This document shows positions 2,693 to 15,095 of a stretch of 15,095 nucleotides of DNA, piece after piece (position 1 is the stretch's first letter; each line of letters starts with the position of its first letter). A model generated the notes under the pieces. That model did not search any database. It was not told the origin of the DNA and was given only the letters and a program-made list of their open reading frames with translations. Where the stretch lies: positions 1 through 15,095 of the forward strand of contig JAPHUI010000136.1 in the NCBI GenBank assembly GCA_026193755.1, in the 5' to 3' direction. Made by a program: the position numbers and the translations under genes. The DNA is from Ignavibacteriaceae bacterium (GTDB taxonomy: Bacteria; Bacteroidota; Ignavibacteria; Ignavibacteriales; Ignavibacteriaceae).

Positions 2693-3709
2693 TTGAAAAT
2701 TAAACAAGAAGAAATAAGAAAAATTCTTTGTGTTAAACCCAGGGGAATTGGTGATATAATACTTTCAACAATTGTATTAGAAAATTTACGAACTGCATTT
2801 CCTAAAGCCGAAATCCATTACCTCACTGAAGAGTTTGCTAAACGTGCTGTTGAGAATAACACCTTTGTTTCAAAGATATTGACTTTCAAGAAAGACGATT
2901 TAGTTTTCAAAACAATAAATAAAGTCAGAAGAGAAAAGTATAATCTTGTTTTAGACCTTTATTCCAATCCGAAGACAGCTCAGATTACATTTTTATCAGG
3001 TGCAAAATACAGAGCAGGTTTTGAAAAGAGAGGAAGAAGATACGCATACAACATTTTAGGCAAATCTGGTTCTACTGGTAAACATGCAGCAGAAGATAAC
3101 CTTGTGCTACTGAACATTTTGGAGATACCGATAAATTCTAAAAAAATTATCTATGCAACCACAAAAGAAGAAAAGTTATTTGCGGATAATTTTCTTAAGG
3201 ATAAAATTAAACGAAATGAGTTTCGCTTAATCGGAATAATACCTTCAGGAGGATGGGAATCCAAAAGATGTGATGCAAGTAAATTGATTGAAATATGTAA
3301 TGAGATTCAAAAATCTATCAAAACAAAATTTATAATCCTTTGGGGACCTGGAGATGAAAAAGATGCAAAAGAAATTTTTGAAGGTTTAAAACCCAATCCT
3401 TTAATTGCACCTAGTACCTCATTTGGGGAACTTTCAGGTTTAATAGAAAAGTGTGATTTAATTGTTGCTAATGATTCAGGTCCTATGCACGTTGCTGCTG
3501 CTTTGGGCATCCCAACAATAGGAATATTCGGACCAACAAATCCAGAAAATCATAGACCGTTTTCATCCAATTCCGACTTTGTAATAAAAAGTGATCTTCA
3601 TTGTATTATTTGCAATAAACTTGTTTGTCCATATAAACACGAATGTATGCTTGAACTCGATCCCAAAGAGTTTGCCACTAAAGCAAAAAAACTTCTGGGT
3701 TTTGTATGA
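2693..3709 (+). CDS. Glycosyltransferase family 9 protein (heptosyltransferase-like), first of three
   Basis: GT9 enzymes transfer ADP-activated heptose or related sugars onto the inner core of lipopolysaccharide or other surface glycans at the cytoplasmic face of the inner membrane. This 338-residue protein has the GT-B two-lobe layout: KPRGIGDIILST at residues 15-26 (acceptor-side lobe), GGWESKR at 186-192, and the donor-site signature ANDSGPMHVAAALG at 259-272 followed by FGPT. A C-terminal cysteine cluster, C304-x2-C307-x4-C312-x5-C318, resembles one found in many non-enteric GT9 proteins. The start is TTG at 2693. An in-frame stop lies 12 nt further upstream at 2678-2680, and no ATG lies between it and the GDI motif. 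A purine-rich stretch precedes the gene, but no convincing ribosome-binding site is seen. Its stop overlaps the next start (ATGA). The donor and acceptor sugars cannot be told from sequence. Confidence 0.9.
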   Translation: MKIKQEEIRKILCVKPRGIGDIILSTIVLENLRTAFPKAEIHYLTEEFAKRAVENNTFVSKILTFKKDDLVFKTINKVRREKYNLVLDLYSNPKTAQITFLSGAKYRAGFEKRGRRYAYNILGKSGSTGKHAAEDNLVLLNILEIPINSKKIIYATTKEEKLFADNFLKDKIKRNEFRLIGIIPSGGWESKRCDASKLIEICNEIQKSIKTKFIILWGPGDEKDAKEIFEGLKPNPLIAPSTSFGELSGLIEKCDLIVANDSGPMHVAAALGIPTIGIFGPTNPENHRPFSSNSDFVIKSDLHCIICNKLVCPYKHECMLELDPKEFATKAKKLLGFV

Positions 3710-4776
3710 TTAAAGAAATTGAGATATCACTCAGAAAATTAATTTTCAGATTGCTTTTACTTTTTTCTAGAAGAAGAACTAGCAATGAGAAACCGATTGT
3801 CACGTCAAAATCAAAAGTTATATTTCTTAGACTGAATCGAATTGGGGATGCATTGGTCACTACTCCCCTTCTCCATCAAATAAAAAGACAAATTGGTTGT
3901 TCAGTTTTTGTTCTTGCTGATAAAAATAACCATTTTGTTTTTGAGCATTGTCCATCTGTTGACGAAACAATAATATTTAAAAAGGGAATGAAAGTTATTC
4001 AAAAAATCAATTCATTCATTACAAAAAATAATATTGATACAATAGTTGATCTTCACGATGATGTTTCCACCTCAGTCAGTTTTATTTTAAGCACAGCTTC
4101 TGTAAAGCAAATTTTAGGATTGAAAAAAGAAAATGAAAAATTATATACTCACACTGTTGAAAGACTAAACTCATCTGCTCATCATATAATTGAAAGAACT
4201 CTGGAGTTAACCAAATTATTCGGATTCAATCCTGATTTTCAAAGTGCAAAAGTTGATTACCAGATTCATCAGAAATCAATTGATTTAGCTGAATCATTTA
4301 TGAATAAATTTAATGGAAAATTTAAATTAGGGATTAACATCACAGCCGGCAGTCCAGCAAGATTTTGGGGAGTAAATAACTACAAAGAATTAATTAGTTT
4401 GCTTAAAAATTATGATTTAAGCTGTATTGTTTTCACAAGTGAAGATTATTTCGATAAAGCAATGCAAATAACAGAAGAAAAAAATATATATCCTCCAAGC
4501 AAAGACTTTGATATTTTTGCAGCAGGAATATCAAAACTAAATATGTTATTTACTCCTGATACATCTATTATTCACATTTGCTCAGAGTTTAAAATTCCAG
4601 TTTTCGGTTTATATGTTAAATACAAAACAAATGATATGATATGGAGTCCCTGCAACTCAGAGTTTGAAGCAATAATTACAGAAGAACCAACATTGGAGAA
4701 CGTAACTTTCAATGAAGTCAAGAATAAATTTATTCCTTTTTTGGAGAAGCACTTAAATGCCAAAAGAAATTCCTAA
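3706..4776 (+). CDS. Divergent glycosyltransferase family 9 protein, second of three, with a basic-hydrophobic N-terminus
   Basis: This 356-residue protein starts inside the stop codon of the previous gene (ATGA overlap), which suggests translational coupling. After an unusual leader of about 35 residues the GT9 fold begins with VIFLRLNRIGDALVTTPLL (residues 38-56). The leader contains IFRLLLLF flanked by Arg and Lys residues, which could lie along or in the inner membrane. The donor-site region is recognisable but degenerate: TPDTSIIHICSEFKIPVFGLY (283-303) replaces the usual NDSGPMH-type motif, keeping only D and S at equivalent spots. The C-terminal four-cysteine motif of its two neighbours is absent. 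It probably acts in the same glycan-assembly route but on a different donor or acceptor. A lost or altered activity is possible given the weak donor motif. Confidence 0.82.
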   Translation: MIKEIEISLRKLIFRLLLLFSRRRTSNEKPIVTSKSKVIFLRLNRIGDALVTTPLLHQIKRQIGCSVFVLADKNNHFVFEHCPSVDETIIFKKGMKVIQKINSFITKNNIDTIVDLHDDVSTSVSFILSTASVKQILGLKKENEKLYTHTVERLNSSAHHIIERTLELTKLFGFNPDFQSAKVDYQIHQKSIDLAESFMNKFNGKFKLGINITAGSPARFWGVNNYKELISLLKNYDLSCIVFTSEDYFDKAMQITEEKNIYPPSKDFDIFAAGISKLNMLFTPDTSIIHICSEFKIPVFGLYVKYKTNDMIWSPCNSEFEAIITEEPTLENVTFNEVKNKFIPFLEKHLNAKRNS

Positions 4777-5872
4777 TTGTAAAAGGTTTACCGGTTACAA
4801 ACCTTGTTTTCCTGATCACAATTGCTGGGAAGAAGGATGTAAAGATAACATTCCTACCGGCACCAAGATTCTAATTATTAATCTTGACGCAATGGGTGAT
4901 GTTTTGATGACCACAGCACAACTTCCAGCCATAAAAAGAAAGTATCCTGAATCAACAATTTATTGGCTGACTTTAAAAAATGCTGCTCCTCTTCTATTTA
5001 ATAATTCATTAATTGATCACATCTACATTTTTGATGCATCATCTATTTTGATTCTTCAGCAAATAAAATTTGATTACATAATGAATGTTGATAAATCTCA
5101 AGTGTCTTGTTCTTTGCTGAATACTTTAGAAGGGAAAAATAAACTTGGCTTTGGATTGAATGAGAACGGAAAAATAATTCCGGTAAATGAGGGAGCTTAT
5201 TATAATTATAATTTAGGAATGGATGATAATCTTAAATTTAAAGTAAACAAAAGAACTGGACAGGATTATCTCGCTGAAACTTTCGAACTGGAGTACAAAA
5301 GAGATGAATATATTCTTGAATTAACTGATGAAGCAAAGAAATTTATTGAGAAATATAGAAAAAGAAAGAAGCTTGTTACAAGAGATAAAATTGTAGGCTT
5401 TAATACAGGGTGTTCCGAACTTTATCCAAATAAAAAAATGAGAATTGATCAGCACGTTTATCTTATTAAAAAACTTCTCAAAAAGAAATATAAAATTGTT
5501 CTGCTCGGTGGTCCTGAAGATACCGAGCGCAACCAAAATATTTACTCTCACTTCAAAGGAAAAATAATCAATACTCCTACAAATGAAGGACTCAGAAAAG
5601 GTATCTGTTACGAAAGTATTCCTGATGTAATAATTACGGGTGATTCTTTAGGAATGCATATTGCAATCGGCTTGAAGAAATTTGTGATTGCCTGGTTTGG
5701 TGTAAGCTGCTGGACAGAAATTGATTTATATGATCGTGGTGTTAAGTTATTTCACGAAGAATTATTCTGCTCCCCTTGCTGGAAAAAATCCTGTCCTTAC
5801 AATCTAGAATGCATAAAAATGATTGACCTGGATAGAATAATTTCAGCAGTTGATAAATATTATTCGAAATAA
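4757..5872 (+). CDS. Glycosyltransferase family 9 protein with N- and C-terminal cysteine clusters, third of three
   Basis: This 371-residue protein overlaps the end of the preceding gene by 20 nt. It begins with a cysteine-rich segment (C8, C17, C23, C28, including FTGYKPC) ahead of the GT9 nucleotide-fold start LIINLDAMGDVLMTT (39-53). Further GT9 features are NTGCSELYPNKK (216-227), KIVLLGGPED (246-255) and TGDSLGMHIAIGL (294-306), the counterpart of the NDSGPMH donor motif. The C-terminus has C338-x2-C341-x4-C346-x5-C352, the same spacing as in the first GT9 gene. The N-terminal and C-terminal cysteines could together bind a metal or form disulfides; this is inferred from spacing only. 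The likely role is sugar transfer in LPS core or another surface glycan. The gene ends two bases before the next start. Confidence 0.88.
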   Translation: MPKEIPNCKRFTGYKPCFPDHNCWEEGCKDNIPTGTKILIINLDAMGDVLMTTAQLPAIKRKYPESTIYWLTLKNAAPLLFNNSLIDHIYIFDASSILILQQIKFDYIMNVDKSQVSCSLLNTLEGKNKLGFGLNENGKIIPVNEGAYYNYNLGMDDNLKFKVNKRTGQDYLAETFELEYKRDEYILELTDEAKKFIEKYRKRKKLVTRDKIVGFNTGCSELYPNKKMRIDQHVYLIKKLLKKKYKIVLLGGPEDTERNQNIYSHFKGKIINTPTNEGLRKGICYESIPDVIITGDSLGMHIAIGLKKFVIAWFGVSCWTEIDLYDRGVKLFHEELFCSPCWKKSCPYNLECIKMIDLDRIISAVDKYYSK

Positions 5873-5874
5873 AA

Positions 5875-6780
5875 ATGTCTTATCCTTTAGTAAATATTGA
5901 TAACAATCCGTTCACTACTTCAAGGGTTGACTCAAAACCATTGATATTAGATGGAGCAATGGGGACTTATTTACAGGAAAAGGGATATTCTCCAAACAAA
6001 GCTTTATGGATGACAGAGATTAATCAAACAAATCCAGATGTAATTGTTCAAATACATAAAGAATATATTGAAGCGGGAGCAGATATTGTAACTACAAATA
6101 CCTTCAGAACTAATCCTTCTGCGTTTGAAAATACAGGAAATGATTGGATTCCTTATGTGGAGCAAGCAGTCAAATTAGCTCAAACTGCAGTGAAAGGCTA
6201 TGATAAAAAAGTATATATTACTGGCTCAAATGCACCTGCGGAAGATTGCTACCAAACGGAAAGAACTATAAGCAATAATAAGCTTGAGATAAATCATAAA
6301 TATCATATTGATTTACTTATAGATAGTGGAGTTAACTTCATTTTAAATGAAACACAAAGTCATTTTGACGAAATCCAAATTATTTGTAATCATTGTCATA
6401 AAAATAAGATCCCTTTTTTAATTAGTTTATATCTTACGGATACGCTTAGTATTTTATCGGGAGAATCTTTTAAATATGTTTTACAATTTATTTATGAATA
6501 TGAACCGCTGGCAATTGGTTTTAATTGTATTTCTCCAAATGTATTTAATAAAATACGGGAGCAAGTTCAGCTTAATTTCAATTGGGGATATTATTTAAAT
6601 TGTGGATTGGGAAATCCAAGCGATAAAATAATTACTTGTGGTATTAATCCAGATGAATATATCGAAATTGTAAAAGAAAGTATGAAAAATAATCCTTCAT
6701 TCATTGGTTCATGTTGCGGATCAAATCCGAATCATATAAGAAAAATAAAAGAGTTTCTTGATGGAAGAAATAAAAGTTGA
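5875..6780 (+). CDS. Homocysteine S-methyltransferase family protein (single domain)
   Basis: The family transfers a methyl group from a donor (S-methylmethionine, betaine or methylcobalamin) to homocysteine, giving methionine, in the cytoplasm. The 301 residues form one TIM-barrel domain: LDGAMGTYLQEKG (25-37), GADIVTTNTF (68-77), NETQ (158-161, Glu159), GFNC (C218) and GSCCG (C280, C281). The three cysteines are the zinc ligands that bind the homocysteine thiol, so the protein looks catalytically competent. The length fits MmuM-type enzymes rather than full MetH, which would add folate- and cobalamin-binding domains. The ATG at 5875 follows the GT9 stop by two bases, and the 3' end overlaps ispE by 20 nt. 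The gene looks more A+T-rich than its neighbours: a hand count gives about 26% G+C for 6241-6420. The methyl donor is unknown, and its place between surface-glycan and isoprenoid genes is unexplained. Confidence 0.85.
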   Translation: MSYPLVNIDNNPFTTSRVDSKPLILDGAMGTYLQEKGYSPNKALWMTEINQTNPDVIVQIHKEYIEAGADIVTTNTFRTNPSAFENTGNDWIPYVEQAVKLAQTAVKGYDKKVYITGSNAPAEDCYQTERTISNNKLEINHKYHIDLLIDSGVNFILNETQSHFDEIQIICNHCHKNKIPFLISLYLTDTLSILSGESFKYVLQFIYEYEPLAIGFNCISPNVFNKIREQVQLNFNWGYYLNCGLGNPSDKIITCGINPDEYIEIVKESMKNNPSFIGSCCGSNPNHIRKIKEFLDGRNKS

Positions 6781-7612
6781 ATCTCATTCAAAAATAAATA
6801 TTGGACTAAATGTAGTTGATAAGAGAGAAGATGGTTTTCATAATCTTCAAACTGTATTCTATCCCCTGCTTCTATCTGACAAATTAAGTTTCCGCAAGTC
6901 GAATAAACTCGAATTCAATTCTAATTCTGATTTCTTGAAAAATCTGGATAACAATTTAATTATTAAAGCTATTAAACTTTTGGAGGATAAGACAGGTGTT
7001 GAAATAAAAGTTAAAATATTTGTAGAAAAATTAATTCCAATCGGAGGCGGACTTGGAGGCGGAAGTTCTAACGCTGCAGCAGCATTGAAAGCAATCAATA
7101 AGCTATTTAGTTTAGAATTAAATTATGAAAAATTAGCGGAAATAACGTTGGAGCTTGGTTCAGATGTTCCGTTTTTTCTGAAACACAATCCTGCATACGC
7201 AGAATCAAGAGGTGAAAAATTATTCCCATTAAATCTCGAGATTCAGTATCCAATAGTAATTGTAAATCCCGGTATAAATATTTCAACTCGGTGGGCATTC
7301 GAAAGAATTAATCCTTCAAAACCAAATTACAATTTACGTGAGTTATTGAGTAAAAATTTTGATTTTAAGGTTATCAGAGATTATGTCACAAATGATTTTG
7401 AACCAATAGTTTTTAAAGAATATCCGGTTATAGAGAAAATTAAAAAAGATTTGTATGAGCTGGGTGCTAACTTTGCTTTAATGAGTGGTACAGGTTCAAC
7501 TGTTTACGGTATATTTTCAAACCTGCAAAAAGCTTATTGGGCAGAGGAGCACTTCAAACAATCTTATTTTACTTTTATTAACAATCCTTTCAATAAAGGT
7601 TCAATCACCTGA
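6761..7612 (+). CDS. ispE: 4-diphosphocytidyl-2-C-methyl-D-erythritol kinase
   Basis: IspE phosphorylates the 2-hydroxyl of CDP-methylerythritol with ATP, the fourth step of the MEP (non-mevalonate) isoprenoid pathway. The 283-residue length is normal. GHMP-kinase motifs are all present: SKINIGLNV near the N-terminus (K11), the glycine-rich ATP loop PIGGGLGGGSSNAAA (93-107), LGSDVPFF with the catalytic Asp (D135), and MSGTGSTVYG (241-250). I chose the ATG at 6761. A TTG lies directly before it at 6758 and would add only one residue. The first 20 nt overlap the end of the methyltransferase gene. The 3' end runs 8 bp into the convergently transcribed carboxypeptidase gene, leaving no room for an intergenic terminator. 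The host therefore uses the MEP pathway for quinone, carotenoid or undecaprenyl precursors. Confidence 0.95.
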   Translation: MEEIKVESHSKINIGLNVVDKREDGFHNLQTVFYPLLLSDKLSFRKSNKLEFNSNSDFLKNLDNNLIIKAIKLLEDKTGVEIKVKIFVEKLIPIGGGLGGGSSNAAAALKAINKLFSLELNYEKLAEITLELGSDVPFFLKHNPAYAESRGEKLFPLNLEIQYPIVIVNPGINISTRWAFERINPSKPNYNLRELLSKNFDFKVIRDYVTNDFEPIVFKEYPVIEKIKKDLYELGANFALMSGTGSTVYGIFSNLQKAYWAEEHFKQSYFTFINNPFNKGSIT

Positions 7613-8546
7613 CACAACTTTCAATAATTTCTACGAAACCTTTAGTTGCATTTAATTTAGTTCTTAGCCCAACTGGTAACGTTATAAAGTCTTTTATATG
7701 ACCATGCGGAAATGTATAAACTGAGGGTACTTTAATACCACTTAGGTAATCATTCATTACTTCACTTAGCGTTAGCGTTTTTTTATTCGGATCGTGTTCG
7801 AAACAGTCAACAAACCTTCCCAAAACTATCCCCTTAATCTTTTTAAAGACTTTATTCAATCTCAATTGATTCATCATCCTGTCAATCTTATAAGGGTATT
7901 CTCCAACATCTTCCAAAAATAATATTTTATCTTTTAAATCAGGCAGGAACTCAGTTCCTATCAAAGAAACAAGGACAGCTAAATTTCCTCCAACCAACCG
8001 ACCTGTACTGATTCCAGTATTTATATTTGGAAGTGTGTTTGATTCCGGAAATTTTAACCTCCCTACTTTTTTACTTGAAGTAATTAATCGCCAAAAATTC
8101 GCTTCAGTATATTTATTAATATTTTTTGAAAAATTTGGAACAATCATTGGTCCTGCAAATGTTATAAGATTAGCTTTACGCAGAAACGCCATTTGTAATG
8201 AAGTGATTTCACTAAAACCAACAAATATTTTAGGATACTTCTTAATTAAATTATAATTAATTTTATCCAGTAATCTGAAAGCGCCGTAACCGCCACGTAA
8301 ACAAAAAATAGCTTTTACAATTTTATTCTTAAACATTTGATGAAGATCTTCAACTCGTTCTTCGTCAGTACCGGCTAAATACCCACGATTCTTATTTATA
8401 TTTTTCCCGAGTTCGATTCTATACCCAATACTTTCTAAATATCTTATTCCCTTGTTCACTAAAATTGGATCTTCAGGAGAAGATGCTGGCGAGATAATTC
8501 CGATCACTTCTCCCTTATTTAATTTTTTAGGTTTGATATAGGACAT
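7605..8546 (-). CDS. ldcA: LD-carboxypeptidase (peptidase family S66)
   Basis: S66 enzymes such as LdcA remove the terminal D-Ala from muropeptide tetrapeptides during murein recycling; MccF relatives cleave microcin C. The 313-residue protein has no signal peptide, which fits cytoplasmic recycling. The catalytic Ser lies in VGFSEIT (S112), the catalytic Glu in LFLEDVGEYP (E212) and the catalytic His in PHGHIKDFITLP (H283). Other family blocks are LRGGYGAFRLL (83-93) and GRLVGGNL (182-189). The start is ATG at 8544-8546 on the minus strand. The gene is convergent with ispE (8-bp overlap) and divergent from the ulosonic-acid-type cassette. A murein-recycling role is more likely than antibiotic immunity, because no microcin-like genes are near, but sequence alone does not separate the two well. 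Confidence 0.92.
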   Translation of the reverse strand: MSYIKPKKLNKGEVIGIISPASSPEDPILVNKGIRYLESIGYRIELGKNINKNRGYLAGTDEERVEDLHQMFKNKIVKAIFCLRGGYGAFRLLDKINYNLIKKYPKIFVGFSEITSLQMAFLRKANLITFAGPMIVPNFSKNINKYTEANFWRLITSSKKVGRLKFPESNTLPNINTGISTGRLVGGNLAVLVSLIGTEFLPDLKDKILFLEDVGEYPYKIDRMMNQLRLNKVFKKIKGIVLGRFVDCFEHDPNKKTLTLSEVMNDYLSGIKVPSVYTFPHGHIKDFITLPVGLRTKLNATKGFVEIIESCVR

Positions 8547-8793: not shown

Positions 8794-9861
8794 ATGAATA
8801 AAAAGAAGATTTTATACATATGTGGTTCTCTAAATCAAACCACTCAAATGCATAAGATTTCGAATGAACTTCAAGAGCACGATGCTTATTTCACACCTTA
8901 CTATTCCCAGGGATATTGGTATATAGAATTTACAAGCAAGTTTGGATTAATGGATTTTAGCATTCTTGGAGGACAGGCTAAACAAAATACATTAAATTAT
9001 TTAAAGGAAAATAACCTGAATCTTGATGATGAAGGAAAGATGAATGATTATGATTTAGTTTTTACTTGCTCCGATATGCTCATACCGAAAAATATCCGTG
9101 AAAAAAAAATAATTCTTGTCCAGGAAGGTATGACGGACCCAGAAAATTGGGGATATCACCTTGTTAAGAAATTTAATTTCCCGCGTTGGTTTGGAAGTAC
9201 TTCAACAACGGGAATGAGTAATATTTATGAAACTTTTTGTGTTGCTTCAGAAGGATATAAAGATTTATTTATTTCGAAAGGTGCAGATCCTAAAAAAATT
9301 GTTGTAACCGGTATACCAAACTTTGATAATTGTGCTAAATTTCTCAAGAATGATTTCCCACATAAAGGATTTGTACTTGTTGCTACATCAGATATGAGAG
9401 AAACCTTCAAGTACGAAAACAGAAGAAAATTTATTGAAAGAGTTGTCGAGATTGCGTCTGGTAAACAAATTATATTTAAGCTGCATCCGAATGAAAATTA
9501 TGATAGGGCTGTAAAAGAAATAAATATATATGCACCTGGCTCAATCGTATTTCAAAAAGAAAATATTGACCCAATGATTGCTAACTGCGATGTGCTTATT
9601 ACCCGCTTTTCATCGGTTGTTTATGTTGGACTTGCCCTAGGTAAGGAAGTATATTCTGATTTCGATCTCGAGGAATTAAAAAAATTATTACCCTTACAAA
9701 ATGGTGGTGTTTCGGCATCGAATATTGCTAACATAGCAAGAAAAATACTTGAACGAATGGAAAGTTCTAAGGTATTTTATATGAAAAACGAAAAGACTTA
9801 TAATCGTAGATTTATGAATAGGATCAGATTGAAGAAAAAATTTGCGAAGGTAAAAAATTAA
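8794..9861 (+). CDS. Putative GT-B-fold glycosyl- or glycerophosphotransferase-like protein, first gene of the cassette
   Basis: I do not recognise a precise family for this 355-residue protein. It begins with a Rossmann-like KKKILYICGSLNQ (3-15). Its C-terminal half shows features common in GT-B enzymes of the CDP-glycerol glycerophosphotransferase, polysialyltransferase and UDP-GlcNAc-2-epimerase-like clan: KKIVVTGIPNFDN (167-179), FVLVATSD (193-200), IFKLHPNEN (227-235) and CDVLITRFSSVVYVGLALGK (265-284). The K-HP motif plus an Ser/Thr-rich stretch before a 'whole-lobe' helix is typical of donor-nucleotide binding. The hydrolysing-epimerase signature of NeuC/LegG is not visible. The C-terminus is very basic (KKKFAKVKN), which could help membrane association. 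Because a CMP-sugar synthetase follows directly, my inference is a transferase for the CMP-activated product of the downstream genes. Start is ATG at 8794; no strong ribosome-binding site is present. Confidence 0.6.
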   Translation: MNKKKILYICGSLNQTTQMHKISNELQEHDAYFTPYYSQGYWYIEFTSKFGLMDFSILGGQAKQNTLNYLKENNLNLDDEGKMNDYDLVFTCSDMLIPKNIREKKIILVQEGMTDPENWGYHLVKKFNFPRWFGSTSTTGMSNIYETFCVASEGYKDLFISKGADPKKIVVTGIPNFDNCAKFLKNDFPHKGFVLVATSDMRETFKYENRRKFIERVVEIASGKQIIFKLHPNENYDRAVKEINIYAPGSIVFQKENIDPMIANCDVLITRFSSVVYVGLALGKEVYSDFDLEELKKLLPLQNGGVSASNIANIARKILERMESSKVFYMKNEKTYNRRFMNRIRLKKKFAKVKN

Positions 9862-9907
9862 TTTTTTAAAATAGTTCTTATCACTCTTTAAATCCCCATA
9901 TTGACAC

Positions 9908-10717
9908 TTGAGCCAACTTCCTAATATTGTAACCATAATTCAAGCACGAATGGGTTCTTCCCGACTGCCCGGAAAAGTAATTCTTCCTTTAGCCGGGAAA
10001 CCATTACTTTTAAGAATGTACGAAAGGGTTGCAGCATCCAAGTATGCAGGTGAAATTGTTATAGCTATTACTGAAGATGAATCAGATAACGAACTTACTG
10101 TATTGTGTAAAAAGAATAATCTCAATTTTTTCAGAGGAAGTTCGGTTGATTTGCTTGACAGGCACTATAAAACAGCAAAAAAATATAATGCAGAGGCTGT
10201 TGTTAAAATACCATCGGATTGCCCGTTGATTGATTCTGACATCATTGATAAAGTAATCTTATATTATATTAACAATTCTGATAAATTTGATTTTGTAAGT
10301 AATCTCCATCCGCCAAGTTATCCGGATGGAAACGATGTTGAAATAATGAGCATGAAAACGCTGGAATATGCCTGGACTAAAGCAAAGAAAGAATTCGAAA
10401 GGGAACATACTACTCCGTTTATTTGGGAGAATCCTGATAAGTTCAGGATTGGAAATGTAGTTTGGGAAACAGGTCTCGATTATTCGATGACACATAGATT
10501 CACGATTGATTACAAAGAGGATTATAATTTCATAAAAAGGGTCTACGATGAGTTGTATCCTAAGAATAAAAGATTCAGTTTGAATGATATTTTAACACTA
10601 TTAAAAGAAAAACCTGAATTAAAAAAAATTAATGAAATGTATGCTGGGGTAAACTGGTATAGAAATCATCTTAACGAATTGAAGACGATTTCACCAGAAC
10701 AAACAAGAAATATTTGA
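9908..10717 (+). CDS. SpsF-type cytidylyltransferase (CMP-ulosonic acid synthetase-like)
   Basis: The 269-residue protein belongs to the SpsF/NeuA/KdsB nucleotidyltransferase superfamily, which activates 3-deoxy-ulosonic acids with CTP to CMP-sugars and releases pyrophosphate. The nucleotide-binding signature is IIQARMGSSRLPGKV (10-24), followed by GKPLLLRMYERV (30-41), the metal-site region PSDCPLIDSDIID (102-114), and RFTIDYKEDY near residue 215, typical of SpsF. The start must be TTG at 9908: no ATG or GTG lies upstream in frame before the signature, and the first internal Met (M15) is inside the catalytic loop. No Shine-Dalgarno sequence is visible. The gap to the preceding gene is 46 bp and to the next 28 bp. 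With a NeuB-type synthase and KdsC-type phosphatase nearby, a ulosonic-acid substrate is likely, but the exact sugar is unknown. Confidence 0.85.
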   Translation: MSQLPNIVTIIQARMGSSRLPGKVILPLAGKPLLLRMYERVAASKYAGEIVIAITEDESDNELTVLCKKNNLNFFRGSSVDLLDRHYKTAKKYNAEAVVKIPSDCPLIDSDIIDKVILYYINNSDKFDFVSNLHPPSYPDGNDVEIMSMKTLEYAWTKAKKEFEREHTTPFIWENPDKFRIGNVVWETGLDYSMTHRFTIDYKEDYNFIKRVYDELYPKNKRFSLNDILTLLKEKPELKKINEMYAGVNWYRNHLNELKTISPEQTRNI

Positions 10718-10745
10718 TTTAACAAAAAAATAAAATTAAAAACTT

Positions 10746-12080
10746 ATGCCAAACAAAGTAGAATTCAATAAAGATTATCCATCAATAAAAAAATCAGATG
10801 AGCTTTATAAAAAAGCTTTAAATCTTATTCCAGCGACAACACAAACATTAGCAAAAGGTCCGCAGCAAAATGTTAAAGGTATCGCACCAAAATATCTTGT
10901 TCAAGGAAAAGGTTCACACGTGTGGGATGTTGATGGAAATGAGTACCTGGATTTCAATATGGGTATCGGTCCCCTATCGCTTGGATATGCTTATGATAAA
11001 GTAGATGAAGCAATAAAAAAGCAGCTCGAAGATGGAATCACTTTTTCCTTAATGCATCCATTGGAAGTTGAAGTTGCAGAACTTTTAAATAAAATAATTC
11101 CAAATGCTGAGTCTATCAGGTATAGTAAAGTAGGCGCGGATGTAACTACAGCAGCGATAAGAGTTGCTCGAGCTTACACAAAACGTCAGAAAATTCTCTG
11201 CTGCGGTTATCATGGCTGGCACGATTGGTATATCTCGGTAACTGATCGGAATGCCGGAATTCCACAAGCTGTTCAGGATTTAACTTTTACTTTCAATTAT
11301 AATGATATCCAGTCTGTAATGGATTCAATTGATGAAGATACAGCAGCTGTTATTCTTGAACCATTTGTTTTTGAAGCACCGAAAGATAATTTTCTTCAGA
11401 AGTTAAGAGATATCTGTACAAAAAACGGAACACTGCTGATTTTTGATGAAATGTGGACCGGGTTTAGAATAGCACTCGGTGGTGCACAGGAATTTTTTAA
11501 TGTAAAAGCAGATCTCGCAACATTCTCAAAAGCTGTTGCAAATGGAATGCCCATAGCTATTCTCGCTGGAAGAAAAGATGTAATGAAGGTACTTGAGAAA
11601 GATGTTTTCTTCTTCACAACATTCGGCGGTGAAGCATTATCTCTTGCTGCAGTTATAGCTACAGTTAATGAAATAAAAGAAAAAAATGTTCCTGCATATC
11701 TGGCTAAACAAGGAAAAAAATTGAAAGATGGTTACAATCAAATTGCCAAAGAATTAGAAATGCCATATACCAAATGCATCGGTTATGAATGCCGTTCACT
11801 AATGACTTTCGATGCCTCAGCGGGAAATCCACTTGAATTGAAATCTCTTGTTCAGCAGGAAATGATAAAGCGTGGAATTCTATGGGGTGGATTTCATAAT
11901 ATGAGCTTCTCTCATTCAGATAAAGACGTTGAGTATACTTTGAAGGCTTATAAAGATGTTCTGCCAATTCTAAAAAAAGCTGTTAATGAAAATAATGTTC
12001 GCGGTTATCTTAAAGGAGAACCGGTTGAACCTGTATTTAGAAAAGTGAGTAACTTCAATACTAAACCGAAGAGAAAATAA
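10746..12080 (+). CDS. Class III PLP aminotransferase, glutamate-1-semialdehyde aminomutase-like
   Basis: The 444-residue protein has the fold-type I class III layout: VWDVDGNEYLDF (59-70), GYHGWHD (154-160), which stacks near the PLP ring, LIFDEMWTGFR (231-241, D234 contacts the pyridine nitrogen) and ATFSKAVANGMP (258-269) with the Schiff-base lysine K262. It is closest in look to HemL, but its place inside a CMP-sugar operon argues against tetrapyrrole synthesis. Related GSA-aminotransferase-like proteins occur in O-antigen loci of other bacteria. The inferred role is transfer of an amino group to a keto-sugar made by the dehydrogenase encoded next, or an aminomutase-type shift on a sugar. 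The C-terminal tail of about 25 residues beyond the core (VRGYLKGEPVEPVF and on) resembles tails of polysaccharide-locus members. The ATG at 10746 fits; the next gene starts 2 nt after the stop. Confidence 0.87.
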   Translation: MPNKVEFNKDYPSIKKSDELYKKALNLIPATTQTLAKGPQQNVKGIAPKYLVQGKGSHVWDVDGNEYLDFNMGIGPLSLGYAYDKVDEAIKKQLEDGITFSLMHPLEVEVAELLNKIIPNAESIRYSKVGADVTTAAIRVARAYTKRQKILCCGYHGWHDWYISVTDRNAGIPQAVQDLTFTFNYNDIQSVMDSIDEDTAAVILEPFVFEAPKDNFLQKLRDICTKNGTLLIFDEMWTGFRIALGGAQEFFNVKADLATFSKAVANGMPIAILAGRKDVMKVLEKDVFFFTTFGGEALSLAAVIATVNEIKEKNVPAYLAKQGKKLKDGYNQIAKELEMPYTKCIGYECRSLMTFDASAGNPLELKSLVQQEMIKRGILWGGFHNMSFSHSDKDVEYTLKAYKDVLPILKKAVNENNVRGYLKGEPVEPVFRKVSNFNTKPKRK

Positions 12081-12082
12081 TT

Positions 12083-12907
12083 TTGTCTACTGAAAAGAAA
12101 ATATCAGAACTTTTTTCGTTAAAAGAAAAAATTGCGATCGTTACAGGTGCTCTTGGATTAATTGGTAAACATCATTGTCATGCACTTGCAGAAGCAGGTG
12201 CAAATGTTGTTGTGTGTGACCTTAATGAAAGTCAGTGCGCTAAATTTGCATCTTCCCTTTCTGTTCTGTCTTTGGGAATTGGAGTAAATATAACTGATAA
12301 AAAATCTGTTCTTTCACTGAAGAGAAAAGTTTTAAGCAACTACGGTAAAATTGACATTTTAGTCAATAACGCAGCAATAAATGATAAATTTGAAGATCCA
12401 CAATCGGCATTAGAAGAATCAAAGTTTGAAAACTATCCGGTTGAGATGTTCAAGAAATCACTGGATGTAAATGTAACCGGAATGTTCATCTGCTCCCAAG
12501 TACTTGGCTCTGAAATGGCTAACAGAGGATCAGGAAGCATAATTAATGTTGCATCAACTTATGGTGTTGTTGCGCCAGACCAATCAATTTATAAAAACGA
12601 AAAAGGTGAACAATCTTTTTATAAGTCAGCTGCTTATCCCGTTACAAAAGGTGCGGTAATTTCGTTTACAAGATTTCTTGCCACTTACTGGGCAAATAAA
12701 GGTGTTCGAGTAAACACTCTTTCCCCTGGCGGAGTTAAAGATAACCAGGAAGAATTTTTTGTAAAAAATTATTCTAATAGAACACCCCTTGGACGAATGG
12801 CTTTTCCTACAGATTATAAAGGTGCGCTCGTTTTCTTGGCTAGTGATGCATCCAGTTATATGACAGGAGCTAATCTTGTTGTTGATGGAGGCTGGACAGC
12901 ATGGTAA
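12083..12907 (+). CDS. Short-chain dehydrogenase/reductase (SDR), PtmA-like
   Basis: This 274-residue classical SDR should oxidise or reduce a sugar hydroxyl or ketone using NAD(P). Visible motifs are the dinucleotide loop TGALGLIG (21-28), D46 at the end of the second strand (favours NAD over NADP), NNAAI (95-99), the catalytic Ser in NVASTYG (S158), and YPVTK (Y185, K189). The segment SPGGV after the catalytic helix is normal. The fold resembles PtmA-type flagellin-glycan dehydrogenases, but that is an impression. The start is TTG at 12083, two bases after the aminotransferase stop; the next in-frame Met would remove the cofactor site. The end overlaps the phosphatase gene by 7 nt, so tight translational coupling is expected. 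It probably supplies the keto substrate for the class III aminotransferase. Confidence 0.88.
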   Translation: MSTEKKISELFSLKEKIAIVTGALGLIGKHHCHALAEAGANVVVCDLNESQCAKFASSLSVLSLGIGVNITDKKSVLSLKRKVLSNYGKIDILVNNAAINDKFEDPQSALEESKFENYPVEMFKKSLDVNVTGMFICSQVLGSEMANRGSGSIINVASTYGVVAPDQSIYKNEKGEQSFYKSAAYPVTKGAVISFTRFLATYWANKGVRVNTLSPGGVKDNQEEFFVKNYSNRTPLGRMAFPTDYKGALVFLASDASSYMTGANLVVDGGWTAW

Positions 12908-13443
12908 TTGACAATCAACTAAAACAAAAGAATTTACGTCTGAAAAAGAAAATTGAAAAAATCAAAGTTGTATTGACGGATAATGATGGTGTCTTAACAG
13001 ATACAGGTGTTTATTATTCTAATAAAGGTGAAGAGTTTAAAAGATTTTCGATCCGCGATGGAATGGGAGTTGAACGATTAAGAAAGTATGCAGGAATCGA
13101 AACTATAATTATTACGGGAGAAGAATCCGGTTCAGTTAAAGCCAGGGCAAAAAAATTAAAAATCAAAGAATATTATCTTGGTGTAAAGAAAAAGGCTGAT
13201 ATTCTTACTGAAATACTAAAAAAAAATAAAGTTAAACCGGAGAATATCGCATTCATAGGCGATGATGCAAATGATTTTGAATTGATGAAATTAGTCGGAT
13301 TTAAAGTCACTCCTGTAGACGGTATGAACTTCATAAAGGAAATTTCTGATTACGTTTGTGAAAATAAAGGTGGCAATGGTGCTTTCAGAGAATTAGCAGA
13401 ATTAATAATAGCATTTCAATCCGGATTAAAACGTAGTTATTAA
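12901..13443 (+). CDS. HAD-superfamily phosphatase, KdsC / KDN-9-phosphate phosphatase-like
   Basis: This 180-residue protein matches the small cap-less C0 HAD family that removes phosphate from KDO-8-P (KdsC) or KDN-9-P/Neu5Ac-9-P. Motif I is LTDNDGVLTD (25-34; nucleophile D27, acid/base D29), motif II is IITG (70-73), motif III uses K98 or a neighbouring Lys, and motif IV is GDDANDFELM (120-129). The C-terminal GGNGAFRE (157-164) closes the neighbouring subunit's site in this tetrameric family. The motif II segment reads TGEES with a lysine 11 residues after the first Glu (E74, K85). From memory this Glu/Lys pair marks KDN-9-P phosphatases rather than KdsC. If so, the pathway passes through a nine-carbon 9-phosphate. 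The ATG at 12901 overlaps the SDR stop by 7 nt. Confidence 0.88.
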   Translation: MVIDNQLKQKNLRLKKKIEKIKVVLTDNDGVLTDTGVYYSNKGEEFKRFSIRDGMGVERLRKYAGIETIIITGEESGSVKARAKKLKIKEYYLGVKKKADILTEILKKNKVKPENIAFIGDDANDFELMKLVGFKVTPVDGMNFIKEISDYVCENKGGNGAFRELAELIIAFQSGLKRSY

Positions 13444-13452
13444 ATTACTATC

Positions 13453-13459
13453 AAAAAGG
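13453..13459 (+). promoter_or_regulatory. Shine-Dalgarno-like sequence of the NeuB-type gene
   Basis: AAAAAGG sits 5 nt before the ATG at 13465. It is notable because the other genes of the cassette have no comparable site, or start by overlap with the previous gene. Confidence 0.45.
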
Positions 13460-13464
13460 TTTTT

Positions 13465-14340
13465 ATGAAAAGGGAGATCAAAGTTGGAAATAGAATGATT
13501 GGAGACGGTCATCCCGTTTTCATTGTTGCTGAAATTGGAATAAACCATAATGGCTCACTTGATATTGCAAAAAAACTTATTCAAGGAGCTAAAGCTGCGG
13601 GAGCCGATGCTGTAAAGTTTCAAAAAAGAACTCCGGAAATCTGCGTCCCTAAAGATCAATGGAATGTTGAACGGGATACTCCCTGGGGAAGAATGACTTA
13701 TATTGATTACAGATATAAAGTTGAGTTTTCAAAAGAAGATTATTCCGTAATTGACAAATTCTGTAAAGAAAAAAATATTATCTGGTTTGCATCGTGCTGG
13801 GATGAGGAAGCAGTTGACTTTATGGAACAATTTGATGTTCCAATTTATAAGACAGCATCGGCTATATTAACTGATATAAATCTTCTTAAAAAGCATAAAA
13901 CGTTAAACAAACCGGTTATGATATCAACGGGTATGTCTACTATGGAAGAAATTGAGGAAGCAGTAAAGATTTTTGAGAATAAAAATCATCTTGTAGCTCA
14001 TTCAACTTCTACTTACCCTTGTCCTAATGAAGAATTAAATTTGAAGATGATAACAACTTTAAGAGAAAAATATCCAAATACCCCGATCGGATATTCAGGA
14101 CATGAAACTGGTTTAGCGCCAACCTGGGCAGCGGTTGTTCTTGGTGCAAGCTTTGTTGAAAGGCACATTACTCTCGATCGTGCTATGTGGGGAAGCGATC
14201 AGGCTGCTTCTGTTGAAGTTAATGGTTTTAACAGGCTGATAAGAAATATTCGTGACATCGAAATAGCGCTTGGTGATGGTATTAAAATAGTATATCAAAG
14301 TGAAATGGGTGCTCGCGCAAAACTTAGAAAAGTAAAATAA
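13465..14340 (+). CDS. NeuB-type PEP-condensing ulosonate synthase lacking the SAF domain
   Basis: NeuB enzymes condense phosphoenolpyruvate with a C6 sugar (ManNAc or relatives, or their 6-phosphates) to form nonulosonic acids. The TIM barrel is complete: VAEIGINHNG (21-30, E23), AVKFQKRTPE (49-58), KTASAILTDINLL (129-141), ISTGMST (153-159), HSTSTYPCP (179-187), GYSGHETG (209-216, H213), and ERHITLDRAMWGSDQ (232-246, H234). The protein stops at residue 291, where the usual proteins of about 345 residues continue into the C-terminal antifreeze-like SAF domain. That domain is not encoded downstream in any frame that I can see. Because the SAF domain normally supplies a substrate-binding Arg for the N-acyl sugar, its absence suggests a different substrate. 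The start is ATG at 13465 with an AAAAAGG sequence about 5 nt upstream, the best ribosome-binding site in the cassette. Confidence 0.9.
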   Translation: MKREIKVGNRMIGDGHPVFIVAEIGINHNGSLDIAKKLIQGAKAAGADAVKFQKRTPEICVPKDQWNVERDTPWGRMTYIDYRYKVEFSKEDYSVIDKFCKEKNIIWFASCWDEEAVDFMEQFDVPIYKTASAILTDINLLKKHKTLNKPVMISTGMSTMEEIEEAVKIFENKNHLVAHSTSTYPCPNEELNLKMITTLREKYPNTPIGYSGHETGLAPTWAAVVLGASFVERHITLDRAMWGSDQAASVEVNGFNRLIRNIRDIEIALGDGIKIVYQSEMGARAKLRKVK

Positions 14341-14360: not shown

Positions 14361-15095
14361 ATGTTTAAATTTTTAGCTGATATTACAAATACAATTTATA
14401 ATTACTTCGCAACTATGTCAGATGCAGAATTTTATTCGACTTTAGTAATTGTTGGAACTGCAGTTTTTTTTATTATTGCTGAAAGAATATGGCCTTATAC
14501 AAAAGGGCAGAAAGTACTGCGTGAAGGTTTTTTCGACGACCTTGCACTATATACAATTGCACAAAGTTACATTCTTGGCATATTCATTTTTACGTATATC
14601 ATTAATTTTATTGACAACTCAACGGGACTATCAAGGTTAAGATTGTTTGAAAATGTTCCGATCTGGATTCAGTTAATTTTCTTCTTAATTACACATGATC
14701 TTTACATCTACTGGATGCATCGCTGGCAGCACAAGAATAAATATTTGTGGCGAATCCACGAAGCTCACCATTCACCTAAAAAAGTTGACTGGCTTTCAGG
14801 TTCACGATCACACGCATTGGAGATTCTTATCAATCAAACAATTGAGTTTCTTCCTATAGTCTTATTAGGCTCTCCTCCTGAAGTAATTGCTTACAAAGGT
14901 GTTATCAGTGCTGTATGGGGAATGTATATTCATTCAAATCTTGATATTCATACAGGCAAACTTCAAAAGATCATCAACGGACCGGAAATGCATCGCTGGC
15001 ACCACTCAACAGGAAAAGGCAGGAACAGAAACTTTGCAACCAAGCTTGCTATATGGGACTGGATTTTCGGTACTGCTTTTTTTCCAGAAACCAAG
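14361..15095 (+). CDS. Sterol desaturase / fatty acid hydroxylase superfamily protein, 3'-truncated by the window edge
   Basis: From ATG 14361 the frame stays open to the last base, giving 245 residues. This superfamily of membrane di-iron enzymes hydroxylates or desaturates lipid chains or sterol-like substrates using O2. The protein has hydrophobic segments at about 26-42, 62-84, 100-112 and 160-185. Histidine clusters that would bind the two irons are THDLYIYWMHR (111-121), HEAHH (133-137) and EMHRWHH (209-215), with additional H151 and H191. The N-terminal half and all three His boxes are present, so only the C-terminal end is missing. It follows the NeuB-type gene by 20 nt on the same strand and could be co-transcribed. 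Whether it modifies a lipid carrying the glycan or is merely a neighbour cannot be said. Another small open frame at 14449-14640 is a shadow of this gene. Confidence 0.88.
   Translation, partial: MFKFLADITNTIYNYFATMSDAEFYSTLVIVGTAVFFIIAERIWPYTKGQKVLREGFFDDLALYTIAQSYILGIFIFTYIINFIDNSTGLSRLRLFENVPIWIQLIFFLITHDLYIYWMHRWQHKNKYLWRIHEAHHSPKKVDWLSGSRSHALEILINQTIEFLPIVLLGSPPEVIAYKGVISAVWGMYIHSNLDIHTGKLQKIINGPEMHRWHHSTGKGRNRNFATKLAIWDWIFGTAFFPETK

Follow-up and report, generated by a model that had tools for sequence, protein, structure and literature searches.

A conserved gene cassette of an Ignavibacteriaceae bacterium, apparently an undescribed variant of aminated ulosonic-acid biosynthesis

Here we report the analysis of a gene cassette on a stretch of DNA of 15,095 nucleotides from an Ignavibacteriaceae bacterium (assembly GCA_026193755.1, contig JAPHUI010000136.1; hereafter the window), which belongs to a 2.54-Mb draft genome with a completeness of 84% (G000:C426; genomes, contigs, loci and families carry our own numbers with the prefixes G, C, L and f). 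The cassette encodes a predicted glycosyltransferase (GT), an SpsF-type cytidylyltransferase, a class III aminotransferase dependent on pyridoxal phosphate (PLP), a short-chain dehydrogenase/reductase (SDR), a KdsC-type phosphatase of the HAD superfamily, a NeuB-family synthase and a fatty-acid-hydroxylase-family membrane protein; a dedicated transketolase is encoded elsewhere in the same genome. It is apparently a real and conserved variant of aminated ulosonic-acid biosynthesis that has not been described before, and a search of the open-access literature, of limited depth, recognised no account of it. On balance, we consider it probable that the core of this operon directs the synthesis of an aminated ulosonic acid, its activation with CMP and its transfer to an acceptor in the cell envelope, probably a membrane lipid.

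The arrangement was compared in 81 loci, namely the best 80 of 540 matches to an aminotransferase profile in named genomes and one locus on a Methylomagnum plasmid; many of them are cut by contig ends. The usual gene order is GT - SpsF - (TKN - TKC) - aminotransferase - SDR - HAD - NeuB - hydroxylase, in which TKN and TKC denote the halves of a transketolase split in two. Near the aminotransferase, NeuB was found in 73 loci, the SDR in 69, SpsF in 67, the GT in 63, the hydroxylase in 56 and the HAD phosphatase in 55, and this recurrence means that the arrangement is not a product of chance. A first-pass annotation, made from the sequence alone, had described the first six genes and proposed a search for their co-occurrence; the six families do recur together in near-constant order. 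Its boundary was too narrow, however, since the hydroxylase gene, 20 nt downstream of neuB, and the dedicated transketolase also belong to the cassette. Carriers are found among the Ignavibacteria, Chitinophagaceae, Kapabacteria and Myxococcota, on one contig labelled Nitrospirae (L053) and on the Methylomagnum plasmid. Those with species names include Chitinophaga ginsengisoli (L077), Minicystis rosea (Myxococcota; L076) and the methanotroph Methylomagnum ishizawai (plasmid; L002), in whose locus NeuB stands ahead of the HAD phosphatase and the hydroxylase is absent. In single relatives, the aminotransferase is fused to the SDR (L126, 4721-7543, minus strand, 940 aa) or the HAD phosphatase to NeuB (L133, 475 aa). 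The domains of the L126 fusion are separated by about 235 residues without a match to any Pfam family.

Because the loci were picked via the aminotransferase, the occurrence of the other genes without it can be measured only by genome-wide searches. These covered 59 genomes of the order (35 with and 24 without the aminotransferase) and 296 genomes of the phylum; all genome counts ignore kinship, and Fisher values are therefore too strong. At the level of the order, NeuB of this type was present in 34 of 35 genomes with the aminotransferase and in none of the 24 without it, one of which (G304) has a longer NeuB of 40% identity. At the level of the phylum, where the aminotransferase was counted at 55% identity or more and an E-value of 5e-171 or better (next match 39%), all 44 genomes holding it also held this NeuB.

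A counterpart with a different amination module was found in a second group. NeuB of this type occurs without that aminotransferase in 67 of the 296 genomes, 64 of which belong to one family (f24; the others are G219, G237 and G272). We take f24 to be the Chlorobiaceae, as the named relatives of its transferase come from Chlorobium, Chlorobaculum, Chlorobiaceae or Chlorobiales. The HAD phosphatase adjoins NeuB in the seven f24 loci read around NeuB, and no further cassette gene was found within about 9 kb in these loci (SDR, hydroxylase and second transketolase were not searched genome-wide). A test of 12 f24 genomes found the transferase in all of them and SpsF (at 1e-20) in none. Around the transferase, the order in seven of seven loci is LPG_TM - GT - cytidylyltransferase - Fe-ADH (iron-type alcohol dehydrogenase) - DegT, and the DegT protein, of which one was compared, has KdnA as its best solved relative (5k8b, 278 bits; next 162). 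In G005 (family f22; L160) the corresponding order is LPG_TM - GT - SpsF - TKN - TKC - aminotransferase, with SDR, HAD, NeuB and hydroxylase located elsewhere in the genome; another member of f22, G087, is a contig labelled Chloroherpetonaceae. From the comparison of this slot in f24 and G005 it follows that one core can be combined with one or the other of two amination modules of unrelated origin, the pair of Fe-ADH and KdnA-like enzyme replacing the other module in Chlorobiaceae. Fe-ADH relatives were detected in 64 of the 296 genomes (63 in f24, one at 33% identity) and in none of the 44 with the aminotransferase, and the two modules never occurred together in the 296 genomes. As the 63 carriers all belong to one family, this mutual exclusion may represent one event. 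A comparison with the open reading frames (ORFs) of 114 loci gave no match at 1e-25 for the Chlorobiaceae Fe-ADH and four matching loci for the DegT protein, three of which are archaeal plasmids without NeuB. As a side observation, a locus of G219 that is rich in transferases and devoid of the aminotransferase (L147, 7288-10214) contains a NeuB of this type (65% identity), a PseF-like/HAD fusion and an SDR.

The genes of the window and the transketolase partner are listed in Table 1. All six ORFs of the first-pass annotation are present on the plus strand, with intergenic distances of 46, 28, 2, -7 (overlap) and 21 nt that bear out the tight spacing it had noted. Its family names agree with the assignments by Pfam and NCBIfam; for the first gene, no family scores above its cut-off, and the predicted fold is GT-B.

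Table 1. Position and features of the cassette genes and of the transketolase partner
Feature	Position	Strand	Characteristics
GT-B glycosyltransferase, probable CMP-ulosonate transferase	8794..9861	+	355 aa; predicted GT-B fold, conserved motifs
SpsF-type cytidylyltransferase	9908..10717	+	269 aa; TTG start; PF02348 105.9 bits
Class III PLP aminotransferase	10746..12080	+	444 aa; PF00202 171 bits
Short-chain dehydrogenase/reductase (SDR)	12083..12907	+	274 aa; TTG start; PF13561/PF00106
KdsC-type HAD phosphatase	12901..13443	+	180 aa; TIGR01670 148.6 bits, cut-off 106.95
NeuB-family synthase without C-terminal SAF (antifreeze-like) domain	13465..14340	+	291 aa; PF03102 255 bits
Fatty-acid-hydroxylase-family membrane protein, seventh gene, 5' part	14361..15095	+	PF04116 107 bits; runs off contig end
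Transketolase partner, outside the window	G000:C439:298-2280	-	660 aa; same genome, other contig

The NeuB protein shares 61-81% identity with its counterparts in other genomes but only 37-40% with the longer NeuB of the order. It consists of the PF03102 domain alone, and has neither the SAF domain nor the equivalog-level score of N-acetylneuraminate (Neu5Ac), legionaminate and pseudaminate synthases (252 of 399.65 bits for TIGR03569 and 209 of 340.25 bits for TIGR03586). The HAD phosphatase belongs to the KdsC/YrbI subfamily by its TIGR01670 score; its best-scoring model is NF058599 (KDN-9-phosphatase), with 151.8 bits and below the cut-off of 180. The nearest solved relative of SpsF is the cytidylyltransferase 6oew. 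A Pfam scan found no acetyltransferase among the seven cassette genes, and in the window neither a DegT-family KdnA nor an Fe-ADH-type KdnB gene. The first-pass annotation had combined NeuB, KdsC-type phosphatase and CMP-transferase into a biosynthetic series to which oxidoreductase and aminotransferase add an amino group; the series is supported, whereas the placement of the amine on the sugar is inferred only.

The aminotransferase is not a housekeeping HemL, an objection that the first-pass annotation had raised against itself. This is ruled out by the scores, both below cut-off (TIGR00713 hemL, 248 of 527 bits; PRK00062, 257 of 398), together with the constant presence of NeuB in the phylum sample. 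The score with PRK06209 is likewise below cut-off (394 of 486). Relatives of the aminotransferase on plasmids amounted to 38 records, and among the five regions read the cassette was present on the Methylomagnum plasmid only. Three plasmids of halophilic archaea (L003, L004, L005) carry a class III aminotransferase of 43-46% identity near DegT and Gfo/Idh/MocA genes, with no annotated NeuB within the stretch read. Distant class III aminotransferases of 32-35% identity in G161, G177, G145, G244 and G183 are encoded by ORFs of 682-703 aa, which leaves room for a fused second domain.

The dedicated transketolase occurs in a split and a full-length form. In the 81 loci, TKN was found in 47 and TKC in 52; of the 67 loci with both SpsF and the aminotransferase, 46 contain a transketolase half and 21 none, the latter including the closest relatives of the window (e.g. 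L007-L012). Genome-wide, a TKN match at 1e-30 or better was obtained in 33 of the 35 genomes of the order with the aminotransferase and in none of the 24 without it. In 18 of these 33, the split form shares a contig with the aminotransferase, at a distance of about 1.5 kb at most, and the other 15 have the full-length form (656-675 aa) elsewhere in the genome; in the nine of these 15 in which the operon was seen, there is no transketolase between SpsF and the aminotransferase. In the phylogenetic tree, six unlinked full-length transketolases, among them that of the window genome, form a group (100/99) with the only transketolase located inside the operon as a fused gene, that of L054. The two genomes without such a TKN match are of the same genus: G320 has a transketolase of the full-length type in two open frames (L122, 8046-10170, minus strand), perhaps owing to an error of assembly or sequencing; G019 has a further split pair, whose kinship is uncertain and whose branch in the tree is long. 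A canonical transketolase (about 1e-70 or better) is found besides in 56 of the 59 genomes; in the remaining three (G236, G315, G321), Transketolase_N exceeds its cut-off, as in all 59, yet no match reaches about 1e-70.

Both forms of the dedicated enzyme have kept the thiamine-diphosphate (ThDP) residues of Escherichia coli TktA. The acceptor phosphate-binding set of TktA, which we take to be R358, S385, H461 and R520 (positions checked on the sequence), has mostly been lost. In the alignment, which at about 25-40% identity leaves the pairing of single residues uncertain, the five split enzymes examined show H26F, H261W and D469N and changes at S385, H461 and R520, with R358 kept, and the four full-length enzymes show H261W and D469P and changes at R358, S385 and R520, while H26 is retained and a His aligns with H461. 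The transketolase of the window genome has R358, S385 and R520 replaced and does not have the canonical acceptor-phosphate site. Since most residues that hold the sugar phosphate are lost, the cassette transketolase probably uses a non-phosphorylated aldehyde. According to a report on evolved E. coli transketolase, the variant S385Y/D469T/R520Q has shifted from phosphorylated to non-phosphorylated, aliphatic and aromatic aldehydes (PMC5073344).

Some neighbouring genes suggest that the acceptor is a membrane lipid, a point absent from the first-pass annotation. The hydroxylase is present in 29 of the 35 genomes with the aminotransferase and in none of the 24 without it; its score stays below the OlsE cut-off (NF052566, 475 bits) both for the truncated gene of the window (116.8 bits) and for the whole relative in L007 (123.9 bits). 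Neighbours in the 81 loci that hint at a lipid are an OlsF-like acyltransferase (8 loci), an SMR-family protein (10) and a PF03706 protein (9), and the Methylomagnum locus contains an OlsB-like gene (160.9 bits, below the cut-off of 350). In G035 and G314, a second SAF-less NeuB lies next to an OlsF-like acyltransferase (L135, 8810-11727; L136, 7899-12594); this second NeuB also adjoins a metallophosphoesterase, apart from the aminotransferase cassette. An aminoglycosphingolipid is reported from Chlorobium limicola, and its sugar has reportedly been called neuraminic acid. The lipid is mentioned in PMC11762602, citing Jensen 1991.

The following route is our inference with respect to each reaction, to the sequence in which SDR, transketolase and aminotransferase act, and to the nature of both sugar and acceptor. 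NeuB would condense phosphoenolpyruvate (PEP) with a phosphorylated aldose, and the HAD phosphatase would dephosphorylate the product. The SDR would oxidise a hydroxyl group, upon which the dedicated transketolase and the aminotransferase would convert the carbonyl to an amine. SpsF would make the CMP-sugar, the product of the first gene would transfer it to the acceptor and the hydroxylase would complete the product, which flippase-like proteins of some relatives may move. In a quite unlikely, chain-extended variant, the SDR would make a terminal aldehyde of the dephosphorylated ulosonate, the transketolase would add a C2 ketol and the aminotransferase would aminate the ketone, giving a lipid-borne C10 or C11 amino sugar acid; to our knowledge, this class of higher-carbon sugar acid on a lipid has been found in no bacterial envelope. 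Several observations weigh against the proposed route. The Chlorobiaceae Fe-ADH is only distantly similar to KdnB (5k8c, 59.7 bits, with 23 solved sequences above it), and NeuC and UDP-N-acetylglucosamine (UDP-GlcNAc) 2-epimerases are the top structural matches of the first gene product. Moreover, the distribution of OlsF among genomes does not follow that of the cassette: its presence in 13 of 35 genomes with and 7 of 24 without the aminotransferase (p=0.59) led us to reject it as a fixed part of the cassette. In 8 of the 13 cassette genomes with OlsF, it lies at most 5 kb from the aminotransferase.

The predicted structure of the first gene product (predicted local distance difference test, pLDDT, 88.7) has a GT-B fold, and the structure ranking, which covers the ranked families only, does not separate transferase from epimerase. 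A NeuC-like hydrolysing 2-epimerase, with a Neu5Ac-like sugar formed from UDP-GlcNAc and the true transferase located elsewhere, would agree with those top matches, with a weak Epimerase_2 match (19.3 bits) and with public records, some of which call the Chlorobiaceae orthologs UDP-GlcNAc 2-epimerase. However, the Epimerase_2 score is below the cut-off of 30.6, the NeuB of the cassette lacks the SAF domain and the identified neighbour families include no other transferase that recurs in the operon (here and below, statements on recurrent neighbours cover the identified clusters, with clusters 18-23 left out). The residues Q110-E111-G112, H231-P232 and S273-[S/T]274 are kept in 49 of 49 aligned sequences and the same motifs in 7 of 7 Chlorobiaceae orthologs; these invariant motifs are similar to motifs found in CMP-sugar transferases. 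In a polysialyltransferase (PMC5517516), the catalytic base loop, the HP motif and the Ser-Thr pair that binds phosphate are of the same kind and in the same order. No sequence match to any solved sialyltransferase was obtained. Judging from these motifs and the fold model, the first gene is a probable CMP-ulosonate transferase, and the epimerase is hardly a probable alternative.

The genes might also serve two branches, NeuB, HAD, SpsF and transferase making and attaching a plain Kdn-like sugar acid and transketolase, aminotransferase and hydroxylase building the amino-alcohol part of the lipid acceptor, in which an aldehyde and a C2 unit would give a 2-keto-1,3-diol and, after amination, a sphingoid-like base. 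This would explain a transketolase clamp mostly lost at the very positions that PMC5073344 ties to activity on non-phosphorylated, aliphatic and aromatic aldehydes, the hydroxylase and OlsF/OlsB-like genes nearby, the presence of NeuB and HAD without this aminotransferase in Chlorobiaceae and the aminoglycosphingolipid reported from C. limicola (PMC11762602). It would also fit a NeuB without SAF, a domain whose Arg314 contributes to positioning the N-acetyl group in the enzyme of Neisseria (PMC6795526). However, the equivalent Chlorobiaceae slot holds a gene for a relative of KdnA, an enzyme whose substrate is a sugar acid; with that gene found, we lowered our estimate and regard two branches as unlikely. 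The aminotransferase-SDR and HAD-NeuB fusions also speak against them, though they are little informative on the branch. A module for O-antigen or capsule sugars, with the product polymerised or attached to polysaccharide and no lipid-specific role, is suggested by an O-antigen locus of Legionella serogroup 6 in which genes for a class III aminotransferase, a cytidylyltransferase, PseG and NeuB lie together (PMC3694923) and by three genes of the glycosyltransferase family 9 (GT9, heptosyltransferase family) upstream in the window. But GT9 is the sole polysaccharide transferase among the identified recurrent neighbours, and it stands near the cassette in only 8 of 81 loci, without extending across lineages. 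As the identified flanking genes vary from lineage to lineage, we consider a pure O-antigen module very unlikely, and prefer an aminated ulosonic acid transferred to an envelope acceptor.

Upstream of the cassette (window 2693-8546), the three consecutive GT9 genes are followed by homocysteine S-methyltransferase-family, GHMP-kinase and LD-carboxypeptidase-family genes. In the 81 loci, relatives of the first GT9 were found in 8, of the homocysteine S-methyltransferase in 7, of the GHMP kinase in 8 and of the LD-carboxypeptidase in 11. A metallophosphoesterase-family gene lies 3' of the hydroxylase in L128-L131, and one such gene recurs near the cassette in 21 of the 81 loci.

This study defines a recurrent cassette with named carriers and its counterpart in Chlorobiaceae. 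If the proposed route is correct, two interchangeable amination modules act on one ulosonic-acid core, a role is assigned to a divergent second transketolase that can be taken for an enzyme of central metabolism, and candidate genes become available for the amino glycolipid that green sulfur bacteria reportedly contain.

The cassette resembles several known systems in part. The Kdn (2-keto-3-deoxynononic acid) pathway comprises Kdn-9-phosphate synthase, Kdn-9-phosphate phosphatase and CMP-Kdn synthetase. It shares with the cassette the succession of NeuB-type synthase, KdsC-like phosphatase and cytidylyltransferase, and the phosphatase scores best with the KDN-9-phosphate phosphatase model; the differences are that it stays under the cut-off of this model and that the cassette has an additional aminotransferase, SDR and transketolase. 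Among the best solved matches are a SAF-less NeuB chain of 290 residues (6ncs) and the SpsF relative 6oew, both presumably from Leptospira, a likeness at the level of the proteins. The sps legionaminic acid operon of Bacillus subtilis, in which SpsC is an aminotransferase, likewise has an SpsF-type cytidylyltransferase and a NeuB-family SpsE (1vli, the third solved NeuB match). It differs by the route through SpsM, SpsC, SpsD and SpsG, no acetyltransferase having been found among the seven cassette genes. According to PMC7439481, SpsM, the acetyltransferase SpsD and SpsG work on UDP-linked sugars.

The bacterial sialyltransferases (GT38, GT52, GT80) share the GT-B fold and D/E-D/E-G-like, HP and Ser-Thr motifs with the first gene product, in which the first motif reads QEG; the fold is not specific. 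The split-gene transketolase of Carboxydothermus (ChTK) is also a two-subunit enzyme; according to PMC7661550, it lacks all the substitutions engineered at R358, S385, D469 and R520, and no full-length enzyme is present in its host, whereas the cassette enzyme is changed at S385, D469 and R520 and accompanied by a canonical full-length form in nearly all genomes of the order. A paper on Clostridium butyricum was rejected as a parallel, as the available text names its transketolase and nonulosonic genes in separate places. A further likeness is in the principle of 8-amino-Kdo (Kdo8N; Kdo, 3-deoxy-D-manno-oct-2-ulosonic acid) synthesis in Shewanella, where a 3-deoxy-2-keto sugar acid is oxidised by the Fe-ADH KdnB, the Kdo 8-oxidase according to PMC5125639, and then aminated by the DegT-type KdnA. 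The first-pass annotation had drawn this analogy; the KdnA-like enzyme in the equivalent Chlorobiaceae operon slot is independent evidence for it and the strongest, while the distance of the Fe-ADH from KdnB does not. The cassette of the window relies on unrelated families, SDR and class III aminotransferase, and has a transketolase besides a NeuB and HAD phosphatase of its own; by analogy, it may work like Kdo8N synthesis outside the KdnA/KdnB family.

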